Positions 41,061-60,955 of a DNA stretch of 64,000 bases are shown piece by piece. The stretch is from Thermoplasmata archaeon (GTDB lineage: Archaea > Thermoplasmatota > Thermoplasmata > Lutacidiplasmatales > UBA184). A program made the translations under genes and the position numbers. The notes beneath the pieces were generated by a model that saw only the letters and a list, made by a program, of their open reading frames with translations, was not told where the DNA came from and did not search any database. The stretch spans positions 66,202-130,201 of the forward strand of contig JAJYXQ010000043.1 in assembly GCA_021796385.1 (NCBI GenBank), read 5' to 3'. Position 1 is the stretch's first letter. Each line of letters opens with the position of its first letter.

Positions 41061-42356
41061 TCACGCCCGCTCTAGAGTAGCGGTCAAACAATGAGCGCCC
41101 CCAAAGGCTCCCGTGATGTTCGATAGCCGGATCTTCTCGGCCTTCACCCCATGGTCCCGAGCCAGCGGCTTGTTCGGGAAAAAGGTACCGGAGGAACGGA
41201 GCTCGCTATAGTCCATGCTGGCCTGCGTGAAGAGGTCGTGGTACTTCCAGGGATTGGCATCCTCGGCCCGCTTCAAGTTCGCCAAGACCTTTTCGGCGTT
41301 GCTCGCCACATCGGGTACAACGATGTTCCGGTCCCGAATGGTGAGGAAATTGGTCGCGTAGCACATTTGCTCAAGGGTGGTGATAGGAATGATGGTGAAC
41401 CCTTGTCCCGTGAGATAATGGGAGAGCCGGGTCCGGCGGGACAGGTGGTACTTCCCCTCCTCGGCCTTACGGTAGACATCGGTGCGGGCACTGCTTAACA
41501 TGTCGGGGTAACCGACGGCGAGGCCTTCCCCGGGAAAGTTGAGGTACGTGTCGAGATGCATGTTGACCATGGGGTCATTGGTCCGGAGCAGCGGGTGCCG
41601 GGGCTGGTGCACGACCGCCACTTCGGGGTATCCCACGCCTTGGGTTAGGATCTCTCGAACGGCGGCTGGGCTGGTCCGGTCTCCCGTCCCGATGAGCGCA
41701 AAGCTCCCGCATGGGAGGAAATCCCCTCCCTCAAAGGTTCCGGTCCGGACGGCGGCCACGGGCTTTTCTCCAATGGCCCGCCAGGCGAACGAGGTGAGCT
41801 CGGTCTCGCGCCTACGCTGGGGTTTGGCCATGCGCGAAAGGATGATCCCTCGGTCCCCTACGGCCTGTTGGTCCCGCATGAAGAAGAGGTTCGTGAGCGG
41901 AACCCGGAGAGTGGTGAATGGCATGATGCTCCGCGTTCCCTTGCGCTTGACAAAATTGATGGAAGGAGCGAGGACCAGAATCTGCAGAAGGACATCCCGC
42001 TCCAAGAGCGGAAGGTTCTCCAAGAAGTGCCGCCGGGCTCGGCCGGCTCCGTAACCTGTGAACTGGAGGGCCTGGGTAGTCCACTGGGCGAGTTCTTCGT
42101 ACACATCGTGGGAGCGTCCGGCCGCCTCCATGATTATTTCGTCCAGATACTCCACATTGACGCCAAAATCTCGGCGCAGGGTCTTCACCAGGTCATCGTG
42201 TTCGCGGACCGCCCGCTCCAAGCTGAAGACCCGCTCGTACAATGCCGAGAAGGGCTCGAGCAGACCAAAGAGCGCCTCGATACCGGGTCGGCGGACCACG
42301 ACCCGCCGCAACTGGCCCCATTCGGCGACCGCCTTTGCCTTGCCCACGAAAATCAC
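41061..42356 (-). CDS. Arginine deiminase / amidinotransferase family protein
   Basis: RRVVVRRPGIEA, FMRDQQAV, GTFEGGDFLPCG, MHLDTYLNF, catalytic-type GGAHCLTATL near the C-terminus. Confidence 0.85.
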   Translation of the reverse strand: MIFVGKAKAVAEWGQLRRVVVRRPGIEALFGLLEPFSALYERVFSLERAVREHDDLVKTLRRDFGVNVEYLDEIIMEAAGRSHDVYEELAQWTTQALQFTGYGAGRARRHFLENLPLLERDVLLQILVLAPSINFVKRKGTRSIMPFTTLRVPLTNLFFMRDQQAVGDRGIILSRMAKPQRRRETELTSFAWRAIGEKPVAAVRTGTFEGGDFLPCGSFALIGTGDRTSPAAVREILTQGVGYPEVAVVHQPRHPLLRTNDPMVNMHLDTYLNFPGEGLAVGYPDMLSSARTDVYRKAEEGKYHLSRRTRLSHYLTGQGFTIIPITTLEQMCYATNFLTIRDRNIVVPDVASNAEKVLANLKRAEDANPWKYHDLFTQASMDYSELRSSGTFFPNKPLARDHGVKAEKIRLSNITGAFGGAHCLTATLERA

Positions 42357-48610: not shown

Positions 48611-49995
48611 CCCACGCTCTTGAGAGCGTGCGCAATGGAGGCATCGAGGATCTCCACGGCTTCGTCGATGTGCTCTTCCTGAACGATGAGGGGCGGTATG
48701 TACCGGATGCCAGACTTGCCGCATCCCAGGAGCACGAGTCCCCGACGGTAGGCTTCCTGCTCGATCTCGTCACGCAAGGCGATCGCCGGTTCCTTCGTGC
48801 GGCGGTCCTTCACGAACTCGGTAGCGACCATGAGGCCGACCCCACGCACATCGCCGATGACCATGTACTTCTCCTTGAGCTCTTCCAGACGCTTTTTCAG
48901 GTAACTTCCTTGGCGGCTGGCGTTCTCGAGGAGTCGTTCCTTGTCCATCACATCCAGCGTGGCATTGGCCGCGGCGCAGGCCACGAGGTTGCCGCCGAAC
49001 GTGTTGGAATGGGCGCCCTGGACGGGATAGTCCAGTTTCTGGTCGAAGATCATGGCCCCGATGGGGATCCCGCTTCCCAAGGCCTTCGCGCTCGTGATCA
49101 TGTCGGGCACCACCCCGAAATGTTCGATCGCCCACATCTTGCCGGTGCGACCGACGCCGGCCTGCACCTCATCATCGATGTGGAGGATCCCATGAGGTTT
49201 CAGCACTTTATGAATGGCCTGGAAGTAGTCCTTGGGTGGGACCACGTACCCTCCTTCGCCCATAACGGGCTCTACAATGAAAGCGGCCACGTCTTCCGGG
49301 GGAAGGACACTCGAGAAATAGAGCTCGTCCAAGATCTTCACGCAGTAGAGACCACAGCTTGGGTATTCGAGTTTGTATGGGCACCGGTAGCAGTACGGGG
49401 CCGGAATGTGGGTCCCACCGCCGGTGAACGCATTGAACCGCCGGCGCTGGACCGGCCGGCTCGAAGTCATGCTCAGGGCGCCCATGGTGCGCCCATGGAA
49501 AGCTCCGATGAGACCCAGGGTCATGGGTCGGCCGGACTGCCATCGGGCCATCTTGATGGCGGCCTCGACGCTCTCCGCCCCCGAATTGGTGTAGAAGACC
49601 TTCTTTGGATTGTCCCCCGGAGCAGATTTTGCCAAGCGCTCGGCCAGACGTGTCTGCACCTCGTAGTAAAAGTCCGTCCCGGCAAAGTGCATGAGCTCTT
49701 CTGCCTGATGTTTGACCGCCTCGACGACATGCGGGTGGCAATGCCCGGTGCCGAGGACCCCGACACCGCTAGCGAAGTCCAGAAAGACATTCCCGTCCAC
49801 ATCCGTCACCAGCACCCCCTTTCCTCGGGCGGCGACCACCGGCCCGCTCTTTGTGGAGGTCATGATGGATGCCTGGTCCCTCCGGATGATCTCTTTGGCC
49901 TTCGGTCCCGGGATCGGGGTCACGATCTTGACATGAAGCTTTGTCGTGCTCTTCGACTCTTTGGACTCCTTAACAGGCGCTACAGAACTCGACAT
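48607..49995 (-). CDS. Class III aminotransferase (4-aminobutyrate/acetylornithine type)
   Basis: FLDFASGVGVLGTGHCHPHVVEAV, YTNSGAESVEAAIKMAR, AFHGRTMGALSMT, HIDDEVQAGVGRTGKMWAIEHFGVVPDMITSAKALGSGIPIGAM. Confidence 0.95.
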   Translation of the reverse strand: MSSSVAPVKESKESKSTTKLHVKIVTPIPGPKAKEIIRRDQASIMTSTKSGPVVAARGKGVLVTDVDGNVFLDFASGVGVLGTGHCHPHVVEAVKHQAEELMHFAGTDFYYEVQTRLAERLAKSAPGDNPKKVFYTNSGAESVEAAIKMARWQSGRPMTLGLIGAFHGRTMGALSMTSSRPVQRRRFNAFTGGGTHIPAPYCYRCPYKLEYPSCGLYCVKILDELYFSSVLPPEDVAAFIVEPVMGEGGYVVPPKDYFQAIHKVLKPHGILHIDDEVQAGVGRTGKMWAIEHFGVVPDMITSAKALGSGIPIGAMIFDQKLDYPVQGAHSNTFGGNLVACAAANATLDVMDKERLLENASRQGSYLKKRLEELKEKYMVIGDVRGVGLMVATEFVKDRRTKEPAIALRDEIEQEAYRRGLVLLGCGKSGIRYIPPLIVQEEHIDEAVEILDASIAHALKSVG

Positions 49996-50053
49996 GGACC
50001 TGTTCCGGCAGAGGAACGGAGAAGCTAAAAAGTCTTGTGCAACTAGTTGGACG

Positions 50054-50713
50054 ATGCCCGAGGAAAAGAAAATCACGCTCCAGGTGACCCAGTTAGCGGA
50101 GACGGAACTCAAGCAATTGCTTGCGCGTCAGAAGAAACCGCTCGATGTTCGGCTCTATGTGGTGTCCGGGGTCTTTCCCACGATCCACATGAACTTGGAC
50201 ACGGCCAAACCGGGTGATGCAGTCGTGGAAGCTTCTGGGATCAAGTTCGTGATCGATCCCTTGAGCACGCGATACTTGGATGATGCGAAGGTCGATTGCG
50301 TGCTGGATGCGGAAGGTCCGGCCTTCAAGATCACCGGACCTAACGTCCCGGAGGACGTGGAATCTAAGGGAAAGCCCACGGAAACGGCCATTCCTCCCAC
50401 CGCTTCCAACAAGGAGAAGGAGGAGGCCGTTCGGAAGGCCCTGAAGAAGGTCTTCGATCCGGAAATACCCATGAACATCGTGGACCTAGGCCTGATCTAC
50501 GCCTACGAATGGAACGAGCAGGGCAAGCTCAACATCCGTATGACCATGACAAGCCCGGGATGCCCCGTGGCGGACATCCTAGTGGAAGAGGTCAAGCGGG
50601 TGGCGGACGACGCTTTGGGTGGAGATCAGAGCGTGGTCGAGGTCGTCTGGGAGCCACCGTGGGGGCCGGACAAGATGAGCGAGTTCGCCAAGCGCCAGTT
50701 CGGATACGCTTGA
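50054..50713 (+). CDS. Degenerate A-type (HesB/IscA-like) carrier domain fused to DUF59/MIP18 domain
   Basis: N-term KITLQVTQLAETELKQLL...GIKFVIDPLSTRYLDDAKVDCVLDAEGPAFKITGPN; C-term ALKKVFDPEIPMNIVDLGLIYAYEW...MTMTSPGCPVADILVEEV...WEPPWGPDKMSEFAKRQFGY. Confidence 0.82.
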   Translation: MPEEKKITLQVTQLAETELKQLLARQKKPLDVRLYVVSGVFPTIHMNLDTAKPGDAVVEASGIKFVIDPLSTRYLDDAKVDCVLDAEGPAFKITGPNVPEDVESKGKPTETAIPPTASNKEKEEAVRKALKKVFDPEIPMNIVDLGLIYAYEWNEQGKLNIRMTMTSPGCPVADILVEEVKRVADDALGGDQSVVEVVWEPPWGPDKMSEFAKRQFGYA

Positions 50714-51232: not shown

Positions 51233-51364
51233 GCCGCCCAAAGAATCCGCTCTCGTATTTATCGTACAACGGACGTCTGGGGACTGGACCTGTTGAATGG
51301 ATTCAAGAGACCCCTTTGCCATCCCTATGTGAGTTTATAATCGTAAAGGTCCTTCTGAAGGGGG

Positions 51365-51724
51365 ATGGAGCTTCACCTCGGGCGGCGGACTAGACGATTC
51401 CGGGTGCATGACTGGAGCATGGCCCCGACGTTCGTTCCCGGGGATATCATCCGCGTAACTCCCCAAACCGATGCGGAAAAAGTGCCGGACCAAGGGGATG
51501 CCATTGTCCTTCGGGACCCAGAGATGAAGGGACGAAAGCTCCTCAAACGGGTCCAGTCGGTGATGTTCGAAGGAGGCGCGGTGAAGGTCTTTGTCATTGG
51601 AGACAACCCTCTCCGTAGCCGCGACAGCCGACATTTCGGAGCGGTACCCGTCGAGGACATCATTGGACGGGTCGTCCCGACGAACCCTTCGGCTTCGCGC
51701 GTGGTCCGAGACCGCTTCTCATGA
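51365..51724 (+). CDS. S26-family peptidase, putative Ni-SOD maturation protease (SodX-like)
   Basis: Catalytic Ser region DWSMAPTFVPGDIIRV, Lys region GRKLLKRVQSV, GDNPLRSRDSRHFGAVPVEDIIGRV; gene lies upstream of sodN. Confidence 0.88.
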   Translation: MELHLGRRTRRFRVHDWSMAPTFVPGDIIRVTPQTDAEKVPDQGDAIVLRDPEMKGRKLLKRVQSVMFEGGAVKVFVIGDNPLRSRDSRHFGAVPVEDIIGRVVPTNPSASRVVRDRFS

Positions 51725-52359
51725 GTCGTTCCGGGTTGCTTACATCGGATGGAAAGGGGGTTCCCCTTTCCGCTCCAGACCTTGTGGGGCCATGGAGTGT
51801 AGAGAACTGGGCCGAACTCATTCCCGCCCATCGTCACAAGCGCACCTTCCACCATGTCCACCTCGAGGTCCGTCTGAAGGGGGGCAAGGTCGACCCGGGT
51901 GCGGTCCCAGGCTGGACGAAGGTCCTGTCCGCCCTGAAAGAGCAGAAGGTAATTGAATCCTCCGACCTCGCTTCCCTGGCTGTCTCAGTCCTGCTCGCTC
52001 TGGAGAAGGAACAACTCCGGTTGGTCGGCTCGTGGTCCCTCGTACCTGGTGGTTTGTTCCATCAAGGTTCGAGGGGCATCAAAGAGGGATCGTTCGATGT
52101 CCGGCGTCTTGTCCAAGAGCTCGAGCGCCAGAACGGGGAGATCCTTACCGAAGCCGTGGGGTTCCATACTACCCTTACAGGCGGGAAAGGCTGGATGGCC
52201 GAAGTGACCCTCTTCCGTGTGCACCGAGCTCGGAAGCCTGCGCTCTCGCTCGACCTCTGGGGAACGATCTCCAGGGAGCGTCTGCAATCGGTCCTTTCGT
52301 CGCTGCGAACTCACCTCCCGGTGGCGAAGGCCCTCCTCACGCGATACTCGGTGGATTGA
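51721..52359 (+). CDS. Unknown protein encoded between sodX-like and sodN genes, His-rich N-terminal motif
   Basis: ATGA overlap with the S26 peptidase; contains HRHKRTFHHVHLEV. Confidence 0.75.
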   Translation: MSRSGLLTSDGKGVPLSAPDLVGPWSVENWAELIPAHRHKRTFHHVHLEVRLKGGKVDPGAVPGWTKVLSALKEQKVIESSDLASLAVSVLLALEKEQLRLVGSWSLVPGGLFHQGSRGIKEGSFDVRRLVQELERQNGEILTEAVGFHTTLTGGKGWMAEVTLFRVHRARKPALSLDLWGTISRERLQSVLSSLRTHLPVAKALLTRYSVD

Positions 52360-52407
52360 CGACCTCAGCGCAGCACTGAAAGGAGCAATTTCGCCACCGC
52401 TGGACAA

Positions 52408-52417
52408 CTATTTATTC
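52408..52417 (+). promoter_or_regulatory. Candidate TATA box for sodN
   Basis: ACTATTTATT about 26 bp upstream of the ATG at 52439. Confidence 0.45.
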
Positions 52418-52438
52418 CTCCATGGTGATGGGGAAAGC

Positions 52439-52951
52439 ATGAAGCGCTGGTTAGCGAAAATCGTTGATCTGTTGGCTCCCGCCGAACCTGTCTATGCCCA
52501 CTGTGACATTCCCTGTGGGATCTATGACCCTCACGAAGCGCAGATCGGGGCGCTCACCGTCTTGCGGATGGCCCAGCTTGCTGCTGACCTCACGCCCCCT
52601 CAGGAGAGCGCAGCTCCTGAAGCGCGCCGCGAGTTCCACGCCAAGCTCGCCCGTTACACAGCAACGAAGGAAGCACATGCGGAAATCGTCAAACACCAGG
52701 TCCGGGTGATCTGGGGCGACTATTTCACACCGGAAATGACCAAGGAGTTTCCCGAGGTGAACGACCTCGTCCTGAAGATCCTGCACGATGCCTCCAAGGC
52801 GCGACAATCCTTCTCTGTGGAGCAGGCCAATGCCCTTGTCTCCGACGTACAGAAGTTCGCGGAAATCTTCTGGAAAACCAAGAAGGTCGAGACAAAAGTG
52901 CTGCCCTCCCACCAGAAATCCGGGGGGAACATCGTGGTTCCCGTGGCATGA
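52439..52951 (+). CDS. sodN: Nickel-type superoxide dismutase precursor
   Basis: Short leader MKRWLAKIVDLLAPAEPVYA followed by the Ni-hook HCDIPCGIYDP; conserved helical body (HQVRVIWGDYFTPEM). Confidence 0.93.
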   Translation: MKRWLAKIVDLLAPAEPVYAHCDIPCGIYDPHEAQIGALTVLRMAQLAADLTPPQESAAPEARREFHAKLARYTATKEAHAEIVKHQVRVIWGDYFTPEMTKEFPEVNDLVLKILHDASKARQSFSVEQANALVSDVQKFAEIFWKTKKVETKVLPSHQKSGGNIVVPVA

Positions 52952-53047: not shown

Positions 53048-53365
53048 ATGCCCGTGACCGAGCTCAGCAACGGAGACTTTGACAAATTCTCCCAATCGAA
53101 CCCCGTAGCCCTTGTCGATGTCTGGGCCCCGTGGTGTGGTCCCTGCCGCATGGTATCGCCTGTCGTGGAACGATTGTCTCAGAAGTATGCGGGCAAGGTT
53201 GCTTTCGGCAAACTGAATTCCGATGACAACATGGAGATAGCGCAGAAACTTGGCATCATGAGTATACCCACCCTCCTCATCTACAAGGAAGGCAAGTTGG
53301 TGGACCGGATCGTGGGCGCTTATCCTCAAGAGATTATCGAGGACCACATCGCAAAGTTCCTGTGA
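53048..53365 (+). CDS. Thioredoxin
   Basis: VDVWAPWCGPCRMVSPVVERL, IMSIPTLLIYKEGK. Confidence 0.97.
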   Translation: MPVTELSNGDFDKFSQSNPVALVDVWAPWCGPCRMVSPVVERLSQKYAGKVAFGKLNSDDNMEIAQKLGIMSIPTLLIYKEGKLVDRIVGAYPQEIIEDHIAKFL

Positions 53366-53425: not shown

Positions 53426-54556
53426 ATGGCCACTACAGACCCCCAGTTGGAGCGTTACAACTTTCGTCACCTTCTGGATGAAATAGCGGCTTGCGAGGGC
53501 CGGGGGACGGAACTCATCACGCTCTACGTTCCGCCCGGGCGGGCCATCGCCGACGTCATGAACTACCTCCGCAACGAATATGCCCAGGCAGGGAATATCA
53601 AGAGCCGGGTCACACGTAAGAACGTCACCGGATCGCTCGAATCTCTCATGAACAAGGTGAAGCAGTACCGGGTGGCCCCGGACCACGGTGTTGCATTTTT
53701 CGTCGGAGCAAAGGCAATCGGGGCCGACCGGAGCGAAGAGGTGTCTTTCGTGATCGAACCCCCCGAACCCCTCAACACCTACATGTACCGTTGCGATTCC
53801 CACTTTATCTTGGATCCGTTGCTCGACATGGTCCACGAGCCGGACGTCTGGGGGTTGATCGTCATCGACCGGAAAGAGGTCACCTTCGGGATCCTCCGAG
53901 GCAAGAGGGTGGAGGCGCTGCGCAACAAGCAATCCCAAGTCCCGAGCAAGCACGGCATGGGAGGGCAGTCTGCGCATCGGTTCGAGAGATTGATCGAGCA
54001 CGCTGCCCATGATTTCTTCGTCCGATGCGCGGACAACGCGACCGAGCTTTTTCTTCCCATCAAGGACAAGATCAAAGGAATTCTCGTGGGTGGCCCGGGC
54101 GCCACCAAAGAGTACTTCGTCAAGGAAGGGTTTCTCCATTACGAGCTGCAGAAGAAGGTCGTTGAGCCGCTCTTCGACGTAGGATACACCGATGAGTATG
54201 GCCTCAGAGAACTCGTCGAAAAGGCCTCCGGCACGCTCCACGGGCTCGAGATCACAGAGGAGAAGCAGATCGTCCGGCAACTCCTTTCGGAGATACGCAA
54301 ACCCCGGGAACCTCTGGCGATCTACGGACTGAAGGAGACCTGGGCGGCCTTGGAGGCCGGGGCGGTCTCAACGCTCCTCGTCTCGGAAGGGCTGAAGGAC
54401 AAGGACCTGGTGACCCGGCTCTTTGAGTCCGCTTCGGCACACAGCTCGACCATCCGGATGATCTCGGTGGAGAGTGAGGAGGGTGAGATGCTCCTCAAGG
54501 CCTTCGGTGGCCTGGCGGCAATCCTCCGATACCCCTACCAGGTCCCCGCCGCGTGA
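53426..54556 (+). CDS. prf1: Peptide chain release factor aRF1
   Basis: NIKS motif (AGNIKSRVTRKNV) and GGQ motif (HGMGGQSAHRFERL). Confidence 0.94.
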   Translation: MATTDPQLERYNFRHLLDEIAACEGRGTELITLYVPPGRAIADVMNYLRNEYAQAGNIKSRVTRKNVTGSLESLMNKVKQYRVAPDHGVAFFVGAKAIGADRSEEVSFVIEPPEPLNTYMYRCDSHFILDPLLDMVHEPDVWGLIVIDRKEVTFGILRGKRVEALRNKQSQVPSKHGMGGQSAHRFERLIEHAAHDFFVRCADNATELFLPIKDKIKGILVGGPGATKEYFVKEGFLHYELQKKVVEPLFDVGYTDEYGLRELVEKASGTLHGLEITEEKQIVRQLLSEIRKPREPLAIYGLKETWAALEAGAVSTLLVSEGLKDKDLVTRLFESASAHSSTIRMISVESEEGEMLLKAFGGLAAILRYPYQVPAA

Positions 54557-57850: not shown

Positions 57851-60800
57851 CTATCTCGTACCCTGCGGCGGTCGCTCGTGGCCGCCACCTCCCGAGCGTT
57901 CCAGCTCCGTCATCTCCCGGGGGGTGAGCCGGTGCATCATGACGTACTCCGCCGCCTCCATCACATCGTTTGCCTCGACCTCGTTCCGTCCCTCGAAAGC
58001 ACAATTGGCCCGCGAGATCTCCTCGATCTGCAGGTCGAACCGAGTGCTCTGGTTGTCCAGGATCGTAAGGTTCGTGATTAGGGAGAGCATTTTGGGGGAC
58101 ACCGTGATCGACGGCAGACGTTCCCGGGCGGCCCGGATCTGTTCCACGTACTTCTCTGCGGCTGTTTGATAACCTTCACGGAAGGAGGTGGGATTGCTGC
58201 GGAACTGGGCATTCCGGTTGAGGATCTCCATCCGGGTCTCCGCAGAGTTCGGGGGGATCACCTCGACGTGGAGCATCGAACCGCTCAGAAGGTGGTAGGC
58301 TTCCTCATCCTGGTCCCGCAGCTGGCTGAACTGGAGCTGGGGGAGGCCCAGCGCCCGCCCCTCCGAATGTTTTTGCGGGGCAGGGATCGAGAGGACCGAG
58401 CACTCGTAGAAACGGTCGGAAAGGTATCGCGCCCGTTCTTTGCCATAATGGATCCTTCCTGTGAGATAGCGCTCAGGGTCGTTCCAGTCGAAGTGCAGGG
58501 TCGTCCCCCGACCCAACTGGGCATCGATCGGTGAGATCAACTCCGCAAGGGAGAGCAGCATCGAACTCTTCCCGCTTCCCTCCCGGCCCCACAGGAGAAC
58601 GCCCCCGATCGCCGGGTTTACGGCGTTCAGCACGAGGGCTCTCTTAGACTTCTCCATTCCCACGAAGGCGAGGAATGGGTAGGGTAGGCGCTTGAGCTTC
58701 TGGGAAAGACCCGAGTACGCCCCACGGTTCAGCAGCTCTCGCTTCAACCGTTCTTCCAATGCGCGGTTAGACACCTCCTGCTGGGCCCGGATCCGCTGCT
58801 CCATGGATTCGCGGGCCTTCTCAAGCAGCTGGTTGTTCGCCAGGGCGAGCCGGGACTCTTCGGCATGCACACGGAATTCCATTTCGGATTTCAGGCGTGC
58901 TTTTTCCGTCTCAAGCTGCTGGGTCGCTCGCCGCTGCAATTCGATCTCGGCATCCTTCCACCGGTTCCGCAGCTCTTCCTCAAGGTGAGCCCGTGCCTCG
59001 GACTGTTCCTTGAGCTGTGCCTCCGCCAGGCGCGCCCTTTCACCGGCCAACCGCTGATTGAATTCGATATCCAGACGCTGCTTCTCGGCAGTGATTCTGT
59101 CCGACGTCTCCTTGGCCGATAGCATCTCTATCTCATCGATCCGGTTGTCGAACTCCGCTTCGGACTTGGCGGCGGCTTCTGCAAGGCGCCGTTCGAGCTC
59201 GGCGGTAAGCCGCTGTTCCTCGGCCTGGAGTTTGGCCGCGGACTCCGCTTCTATCCGGGTGCGCTCGATGGCAATCTTGTCCGCAAGTTCCTTCTGAAGG
59301 TTCTCCTCGAGACGCTCGAGCCGTTGCGCGAAGCTTTCCTTGAGCTTCTTCTCGGCATTCTGACGTTTGGCCTGTATCTCATCGCTGAGCTCCTTCACCT
59401 CGGTCCGGACCCGCTCTTCGGACTGTTTTTGGAGTTGCGCCTTCTCGGACTCGAGTTGCCGGGCGAGCTCATCAACGTTCTCGGACACGAGCGCGGCTTT
59501 CAGTTGGGAAAGGGTAGATTCGTTTCGACTTTCGAGTTCCTTCTCCCGGGCGGCGAGTTCGGATGCAAGCCGGCCCTGCTCAAGGCGGACCTTCTCACCA
59601 AATTCAGCCTCGAGGCGAGTTCGCTCGGCGGCTTGGAATGCCGCATTCTCTTTCGCGGATAACTCCTCAATCTCCTTGACCCGTGCCCGAAGCTTCTCCT
59701 CGTTGGCACCCTGTAATTCGATCTGCTTCTGGAGGTTTTCTTCTGTAAGGCGGGTCATCTCGGCAGCCAGTTTCTGGGCGGCAGTCTCGTCCAGCTTTTT
59801 TTGCTCTTGCTCCAGACGAGTTGCCAGGTCCTTCTCTGCCGCCGCTTGAAGCGCCTTAAACCGATCGGTAAGTTCGGATTCGAATTTTGCACGAGCCTCC
59901 GCTTCCCGTTGCGTGGACTCCTCCTTGAGACGACTCTCCTCCTTGCGCAACTTCTCAGAGAACTCATTCTCTAACCGGCCCCGTTCCGTGGCCAGAGCCT
60001 CCGCGCTTTGCTTGGCGAAGGACTCCTCCAGCTCGTGGGTACGCGACCGAAGTTTCTCCTCGATCTCAGCCAGTGCCGCCATCTGCCTTTTCAGGTTCTC
60101 TTCCGTCAGGCGGTTCTCGTCCGCTGCCAGCTTTTGGTTGTACTCCGAAACCAGGCGCTGCGTCTCTTGTTCTATCCGAATCTGGAACGCCTTGTCCGCC
60201 TCGGCGGCCAGTTCACTCCGCCGTTTTGCGATGTCCTCTTCGGCCTTTGTTTGAACCTCGGAACGGCGCCGCTCGAACTCTTGGGCGAGCCGCGTTTCGG
60301 CTTCGGCCGACTTCTGACCGAGTTCAATGGCGAACCGGGTTTTCATGTCCTCCAGGGCCTGGCTGGAGGCCTTCTCCATAGCTGCCGCTAGTTCTTTCTC
60401 TCGGCTCCGGAACGACTCCTCAAGCTTGGATTGGGCCTGGGCGAGCCTCTGACCATACTCGTTCTCCAAAGTGCGTCGGAAATCGCTTTCCCGCACCTTG
60501 TATTCTTGCTCCAGCCGGGACCGGAGCTCCTCTTCGTACGTCCGAGAACGGTTCGAAAACGCGGCCTCGAGCGTCGCGCGTTCCCGCTTGAGGTCTGCGT
60601 CGAACTTGCGCTGTAGTTCCACTTCAAGGGTGTTCCGCTGCTCCGCGTAGCGGGCGGCCAGTTCCTGCTCTATCCTTGAAATGTTGCGCGTGAAATCGGT
60701 TGTGAGGCGCGTGGCAAGCTCTTTGCGCTCCGAGTCTGAGCGAGCCCGCAACGTCTGCTCGAGTTGCGCGAGCTCTTCCTGATAAGCCTGTTTCTGCTCC

Positions 60801-60955
60801 GTGGACCTATGCTCAAAGTCCGCCCGCAGCTCGTCGATCGAGGTCCGATGCCGGTGTTCAAGCTCCTTTTGCAGTTTCGCCAGATCGCCCGAGAGCTCCT
60901 TCTTCACGTAGGCGAGTTCGAGGTCCAGGTCCCGCTCGTGTATTTCATCGCCCAT
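57851..60955 (-). CDS. Giant coiled-coil protein with C-terminal Mg-chelatase/BchI-like AAA+ domain
   Basis: ~750-aa charged coiled coil followed by PFLAFVGMEKSKRALVLNAVNPAIGGVLLWGREGSGKSSMLLSLAELI...LHVEVIPPNSAETRMEILNRN...EISRANCAFEGRNEVEANDVMEAAEYVMMHRL. Confidence 0.85.
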   Translation of the reverse strand: MGDEIHERDLDLELAYVKKELSGDLAKLQKELEHRHRTSIDELRADFEHRSTEQKQAYQEELAQLEQTLRARSDSERKELATRLTTDFTRNISRIEQELAARYAEQRNTLEVELQRKFDADLKRERATLEAAFSNRSRTYEEELRSRLEQEYKVRESDFRRTLENEYGQRLAQAQSKLEESFRSREKELAAAMEKASSQALEDMKTRFAIELGQKSAEAETRLAQEFERRRSEVQTKAEEDIAKRRSELAAEADKAFQIRIEQETQRLVSEYNQKLAADENRLTEENLKRQMAALAEIEEKLRSRTHELEESFAKQSAEALATERGRLENEFSEKLRKEESRLKEESTQREAEARAKFESELTDRFKALQAAAEKDLATRLEQEQKKLDETAAQKLAAEMTRLTEENLQKQIELQGANEEKLRARVKEIEELSAKENAAFQAAERTRLEAEFGEKVRLEQGRLASELAAREKELESRNESTLSQLKAALVSENVDELARQLESEKAQLQKQSEERVRTEVKELSDEIQAKRQNAEKKLKESFAQRLERLEENLQKELADKIAIERTRIEAESAAKLQAEEQRLTAELERRLAEAAAKSEAEFDNRIDEIEMLSAKETSDRITAEKQRLDIEFNQRLAGERARLAEAQLKEQSEARAHLEEELRNRWKDAEIELQRRATQQLETEKARLKSEMEFRVHAEESRLALANNQLLEKARESMEQRIRAQQEVSNRALEERLKRELLNRGAYSGLSQKLKRLPYPFLAFVGMEKSKRALVLNAVNPAIGGVLLWGREGSGKSSMLLSLAELISPIDAQLGRGTTLHFDWNDPERYLTGRIHYGKERARYLSDRFYECSVLSIPAPQKHSEGRALGLPQLQFSQLRDQDEEAYHLLSGSMLHVEVIPPNSAETRMEILNRNAQFRSNPTSFREGYQTAAEKYVEQIRAARERLPSITVSPKMLSLITNLTILDNQSTRFDLQIEEISRANCAFEGRNEVEANDVMEAAEYVMMHRLTPREMTELERSGGGGHERPPQGTR

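Follow-up and report, generated by a model that had tools for sequence, protein, structure and literature searches.

The question raised by this locus is whether an archaeon carries a genuine nickel superoxide dismutase (Ni-SOD) gene, sodN, along with the peptidase that would activate its product, and what the gene lying between the two contributes. The window, meaning the whole 64,000-nucleotide stretch of DNA analysed, belongs to a soil or mine-water archaeon of the Lutacidiplasmatales, and the features under discussion are as follows.

51334..51341, forward strand: TATA-like box (TTTATAAT) of sodX, about 30 nt 5' of the ATG, a putative promoter
51365..51724, forward strand: SodX-type S26 peptidase of 119 aa with a Ser18/Lys61 dyad (Peptidase_S26 E=2.5e-16)
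51721..52359, forward strand: passenger gene for a function-unassigned, family-restricted protein of 212 aa, with homologues unlinked to sodN in relatives
52408..52417, forward strand: TATA box (CTATTTATTC) of sodN, about 28 nt 5' of the ATG, from family upstream regions
52439..52951, forward strand: sodN, encoding a Ni-SOD precursor of 170 aa (PF09055, TIGR02753, and Streptomyces NiSOD by sequence and fold)
52439..52498, forward strand: 20-aa leader MKRWLAKIVDLLAPAEPVYA, read from the sequence, with cleavage predicted
52499..52525, forward strand: Ni hook HCDIPCGIY (His1, Cys2, Cys6, Tyr9), from conservation in 38 aligned proteins
52883..52948, forward strand: C-terminal extension (KVETKVLPSHQKSGGNIVVPVA), a predicted beta-hairpin, from AF2 strands and a 33-row clade
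53048..53365, forward strand: thioredoxin (TIGR01068, 113 bits against a cut-off of 96.8)
53426-54556: archaeal release factor aRF1, by reading, about 0.5 kb downstream of sodN

The product of sodN exceeds the curated thresholds for the enzyme family by a wide margin, with scores of 136 bits against Sod_Ni (PF09055; cut-off 25, E=1.4e-39) and 139.5 bits against TIGR02753 (curated cut-off 90), and a phmmer match to Streptomyces Ni-SOD at E 2e-17. The gene runs from an ATG at 52439 to a stop codon ending at 52951; the mechanical call, a GTG ORF at 52217-52951, is over-long, and the ATG is the better start because 82 distinct family upstream regions share a TATA box 28–25 nt 5' of the equivalent ATG. 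The preliminary description had proposed a SodN precursor with HCDIPCGIYD placed directly after a 20-aa leader, and both elements are present, with the hook following the pattern H-C-x-x-P-C-G-x-Y and the codons for His1, Cys2, and Cys6 at 52499, 52502, and 52514. Residues H1, C2, D3, P5, C6, G7, and Y9 are invariant across all 38 aligned relatives, and an Ala immediately precedes the HC..PCG hook in the sodN loci inspected. Judged on these features of its sequence, the locus is read as encoding a genuine nickel superoxide dismutase precursor.

The assignment extends to the predicted structure, with a metal-free AF2 model built from the 38-sequence alignment reaching a mean pLDDT of 91.9 and, in Foldseek, retrieving 16 PDB hits at E<=0.001, every one of them a NiSOD (TM by target 0.85–0.90). 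The four-helix-bundle fold of the NiSOD crystals is thus found in the SodN model. Hook residues 1–6, which include the predicted nickel ligands His1, Cys2, and Cys6, fall below a pLDDT of 50, which is unsurprising in a metal-free model given that the apo NiSOD chains among the PDB matches comprise 109–111 residues, compared with 115–117 in the native chains. SodN resembles the Streptomyces enzyme (SodN; PDB 1t6u, 1q0d) in its HCDxPCGxYDP hook, four-helix fold, and N-terminal propeptide, but differs from it in having a longer stretch between its first helices and a C-terminal hairpin of ~22 residues.

The strands of this hairpin are predicted at mature residues 132–136 and 144–148, with a pLDDT of about 86–88. 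A tail of the same kind, 21–24 residues long, occurs in every sampled Lutacidiplasmatales SodN and one same-class relative, as well as in six Nanoarchaeota, four Patescibacteria, Thaumarchaeota and groundwater Euryarchaeota MAGs, and Novosphingobium (loci compared: L160, L164, L165, L167, L168, L180, and L182–L186). In the sampled alignment it is absent from the SodN of Streptomyces, Nonomuraea, and the remaining Patescibacteria and Nanoarchaeota, while SodN of the f34/f42 type has a different C-terminal end of about 10 residues. The 33 tailed proteins are split from all the others by a single branch (99/97) in a tree from which the tail columns were excluded, with the hairpin type represented in this sample, in which bacterial Ni-SODs are thinly covered and the genome scan contributes the best 80 of 490 loci, by Lutacidiplasmatales, Nanoarchaeota, some Patescibacteria, and one alphaproteobacterium. 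Searches of viral contigs returned no relatives, and those of plasmids returned two matches only, both distant and bacterial. By sequence comparison, then, SodN is placed in a tailed clade of archaea, DPANN, and some Patescibacteria, with a predicted hairpin that is absent from solved Ni-SODs. As the solved structures found are short Streptomyces-type proteins, this clade offers a well-defined variant of the Ni-SOD structure that can be put to the test. It is conceivable, if somewhat doubtful, that it represents a distinct, structurally unsolved subfamily spread among archaea and small-genome lineages, whose conserved hairpin would alter hexamer assembly or cover the active site.

The S26 peptidase said by the preliminary description to lie two genes upstream of sodN, with Ser and Lys motifs, was found there, with Ser18 in SMAP (nt 51416) and Lys61 in LLKRV (nt 51545) occupying the corresponding columns in an alignment with other archaeal and bacterial SodX-like proteins. 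Archaeal signal peptidases typically have His in place of Lys, so the Ser-Lys dyad marks this peptidase as being of the bacterial catalytic type. Its score against the NCBI SodX equivalog model TIGR02754 (55.9 bits) is below the cut-off of 63.25 bits, and we therefore label it SodX-type rather than a SodX equivalog. The proposed SodX–SodN pairing is borne out by linkage under that label, since 180 of the 182 loci collected from several lineages, a set that counts some genomes twice, have a SodX-like ORF no more than 1.2 kb from sodN. The arrangement of the pair varies: sodX lies on the same strand downstream of sodN in families f34/f42 and in most Nanoarchaeota and Patescibacteria, and is divergent from sodN in the actinobacterium Nonomuraea (L161) and most Lutacidiplasmatales genomes. 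In the window's genus it lies upstream on the same strand, and the window itself departs from the Streptomyces/SodX system in having this order with one gene in between. On this sequence evidence, the nearby soluble peptidase probably activates SodN.

Whether the neighbouring gene supplies the processing enzyme may still be questioned, as the leader of SodN ends in Ala in the manner of a signal peptide and the peptidase falls short of the SodX model, both of which would suit export of SodN and its processing by a general signal peptidase. We regard export as very unlikely, however, for the leader is without a strongly hydrophobic core (mean hydropathy 0.43 over its 20 residues), the S26 peptidase has no transmembrane segment (maximum 19-residue hydropathy 0.93), in keeping with processing in the cytoplasm, and its close linkage to sodN persists through several changes of gene order. 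The 212-aa protein might in turn be taken for a further member of the system that acts alongside SodX and SodN, perhaps as a nickel chaperone or maturation factor. Its gene overlaps sodX by 4 nt, which makes joint translation of the pair likely in the window's species, and the same order of sodX, middle gene, and sodN recurs in a second assembly (L080). Such a part for it nevertheless seems highly improbable, since the gene adjoins sodN only in the window's species (L001/L080) and is missing from the sodN loci of all other relatives examined. Homologues, with 28–54% identity in 17 further family genomes and as two weak matches elsewhere in the phylum, are either on a different contig from sodN or distant from it; two genomes (G090 and G355) have a homologue and no detected sodN, and in six sodN genomes (G101, G290, G186, G272, G344, and G379) no homologue was detected. 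The three-gene functional unit implied by the preliminary description was rejected on this lack of linkage. The protein has no Pfam or NCBIfam match, its single-sequence AF2 model has a pLDDT of 34, and no consistent neighbour of its homologues was found. In L076 the homologue directly follows a gene read as SufD-like, and in the window the middle gene is near an Fe-S assembly gene (49946-50713), with L073 and L076 among the homologue loci. The most economical history is an inversion of sodX within the genus, as suggested by L033, a genus member that keeps the divergent order of the rest of the family, followed by insertion of the middle gene between sodX and sodN in the window's species.

A further concern is that the segment is bacterial contamination or part of a mis-assembled contig, as Ni-SOD was first known from bacteria and the dyad of the SodX-type peptidase is of the bacterial type. 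The surroundings argue so consistently against this that its probability is close to negligible: G+C is even across the window (0.57–0.63), the aRF1 gene and A-type ATPase-like genes lie close to sodN, an archaeal TATA box precedes it, and sequences in the SodN tree cluster according to archaeal family. Gene order is identical in independent assemblies of the genus, with fes-(sodX)-sodN-trx-aRF1 kept in three other genus genomes, sodX being divergent in L033, and sodN is carried by 22 of the 24 Lutacidiplasmatales genomes sampled. Contamination, which the preliminary description had named as a refuting outcome of a phylogeny or binning check, was accordingly rejected in favour of an archaeal origin. 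The neighbouring thioredoxin gene, also pointed out in that description, is indeed adjacent to sodN in the window and its genus; a link outside the genus is unsupported and the gene has a TATA-like box of its own, and it was set aside as an operon partner. Adjoining the A-type ATPase-like genes is a gene for a 1034-aa protein (57851-60955, reverse strand) whose N-terminal part is very long, charged, and coiled-coil-like and whose C-terminal part matches an AAA lid only.

The promoter of sodN is itself conserved, with T/T/A/T at -28 to -25 from the ATG in 78–99% of family upstream regions, a comparison whose general control for TATA position rests on uncertain start codons and is indicative only. 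This spacing is that of leaderless archaeal promoters, suggesting that the sodN transcript is probably leaderless. A CGxCAxC block precedes the TATA element in the family, and in many Lutacidiplasmatales (L035–L052, L084–L158) the block CCGGCA(T/A)C(C/T)TTAT is located 24–37 nt 5' of sodN. Among the family loci scanned the longer motif occurs at sodN only, and it may therefore represent a regulator site as well as a TATA/BRE element.

The view that Ni-SOD is uncommon in archaea does not hold for this lineage: beyond the near-universal occurrence in the family, Sod_Ni was found in 109 of 390 genomes of the phylum Thermoplasmatota, and one earlier study (PMC9287336) already reports nickel SOD in Lutacidiplasmatales, with another (PMC10783094) reporting it in marine group II and, more rarely, in other archaea. 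Elsewhere it is sparser, with Ni-SOD in 10 of 148 genomes in the phylum of a Nanoarchaeota MAG, 16 of 192 in that of a Patescibacteria MAG, and one of 200 in that of a Thaumarchaeota MAG. The sodN of the Thaumarchaeota MAG (L155/L162) sits on a 9.7-kb contig from a groundwater assembly shared with L139, and as its SodN falls inside the Lutacidiplasmatales clade, it may be misbinned or transferred.

SodN of SubAcS10-22 and AcS5-116, genomes from Sheridan et al. 2022 (PMC9287336), belongs to the same clade as the window protein, and contigs of SubAcS10-22, SubAcS15-31, AcS5-107, and UBA184, also named there, are in the same Lutacidiplasmatales set. The window genome represents another genus with its own gene order compared with those described there, and SodX, the leader, and the C-terminal tail are not discussed in the passages of the paper that were consulted. 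The paper lists an arginine deiminase gene (arcA, an acid-tolerance trait) for Lutacidiplasmatales, and the window has a matching gene at 41061-42356 on the reverse strand. Marine group II, whose Ni-SOD has been linked to cyanobacteria (PMC10783094), belongs to the same phylum as the window's archaeon, and families f34/f42, with their adjacent SodX-like gene, are probably marine group II. SodN of this type differs from the window's protein in having HCDGPCGVYDPASA, in an identity of about 30%, in the downstream position of sodX, and in the absence of the hairpin, and falls on a branch of its own in the phylogeny.

Searches of the window's genome, which is about 92% complete, detected neither Fe/Mn-SOD nor Cu/Zn-SOD nor desulfoferrodoxin. 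Of 31 family genomes, one has Fe/Mn-SOD and none has Cu/Zn-SOD or a superoxide reductase of the desulfoferrodoxin type, which leaves Ni-SOD as apparently the sole superoxide enzyme among those sought. A NicO nickel/cobalt permease is encoded in the window's genome (contig C49) and in 24 of the 31, with the CbiM nickel/cobalt transporter found in none of them.

Coordination of nickel by His1, Cys2, and Cys6 is established for the Streptomyces enzyme, and a corresponding route can be proposed here. The SodN precursor would be translated, probably from a leaderless mRNA, and its 20-residue propeptide cut after Ala20 in the cytoplasm by the soluble Ser-Lys SodX-type peptidase. The new N terminus, His1-Cys2-...-Cys6, would then fold round nickel, with the His1 imidazole and amine, the Cys2 backbone amide, and the thiolates of Cys2 and Cys6 as predicted ligands, and Ni2+/Ni3+ cycling in the putatively hexameric enzyme would dismutate superoxide. 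Nickel may be imported by the NicO-type permease of contig C49. Alongside the observed family membership, fold, hook conservation, SodX-type linkage, archaeal context, and lack of other detectable superoxide enzymes, we hold with high confidence that sodN encodes the SOD of this cell, whose precursor the nearby SodX-type peptidase probably matures into the nickel enzyme.

The locus is an ordinary archaeal Ni-SOD locus, real and, as the enzyme was already reported in Lutacidiplasmatales, unsurprising; the details that are new are the apparent sole-SOD status, the conserved archaeal TATA box of sodN, and the tailed clade. An aerobic archaeal family appears to rely on nickel alone for superoxide defence, with a bacterial-type protease near the gene, and the Lutacidiplasmatales present a clean case in which to study how a metal-specific enzyme and its activating protease came to be acquired jointly.
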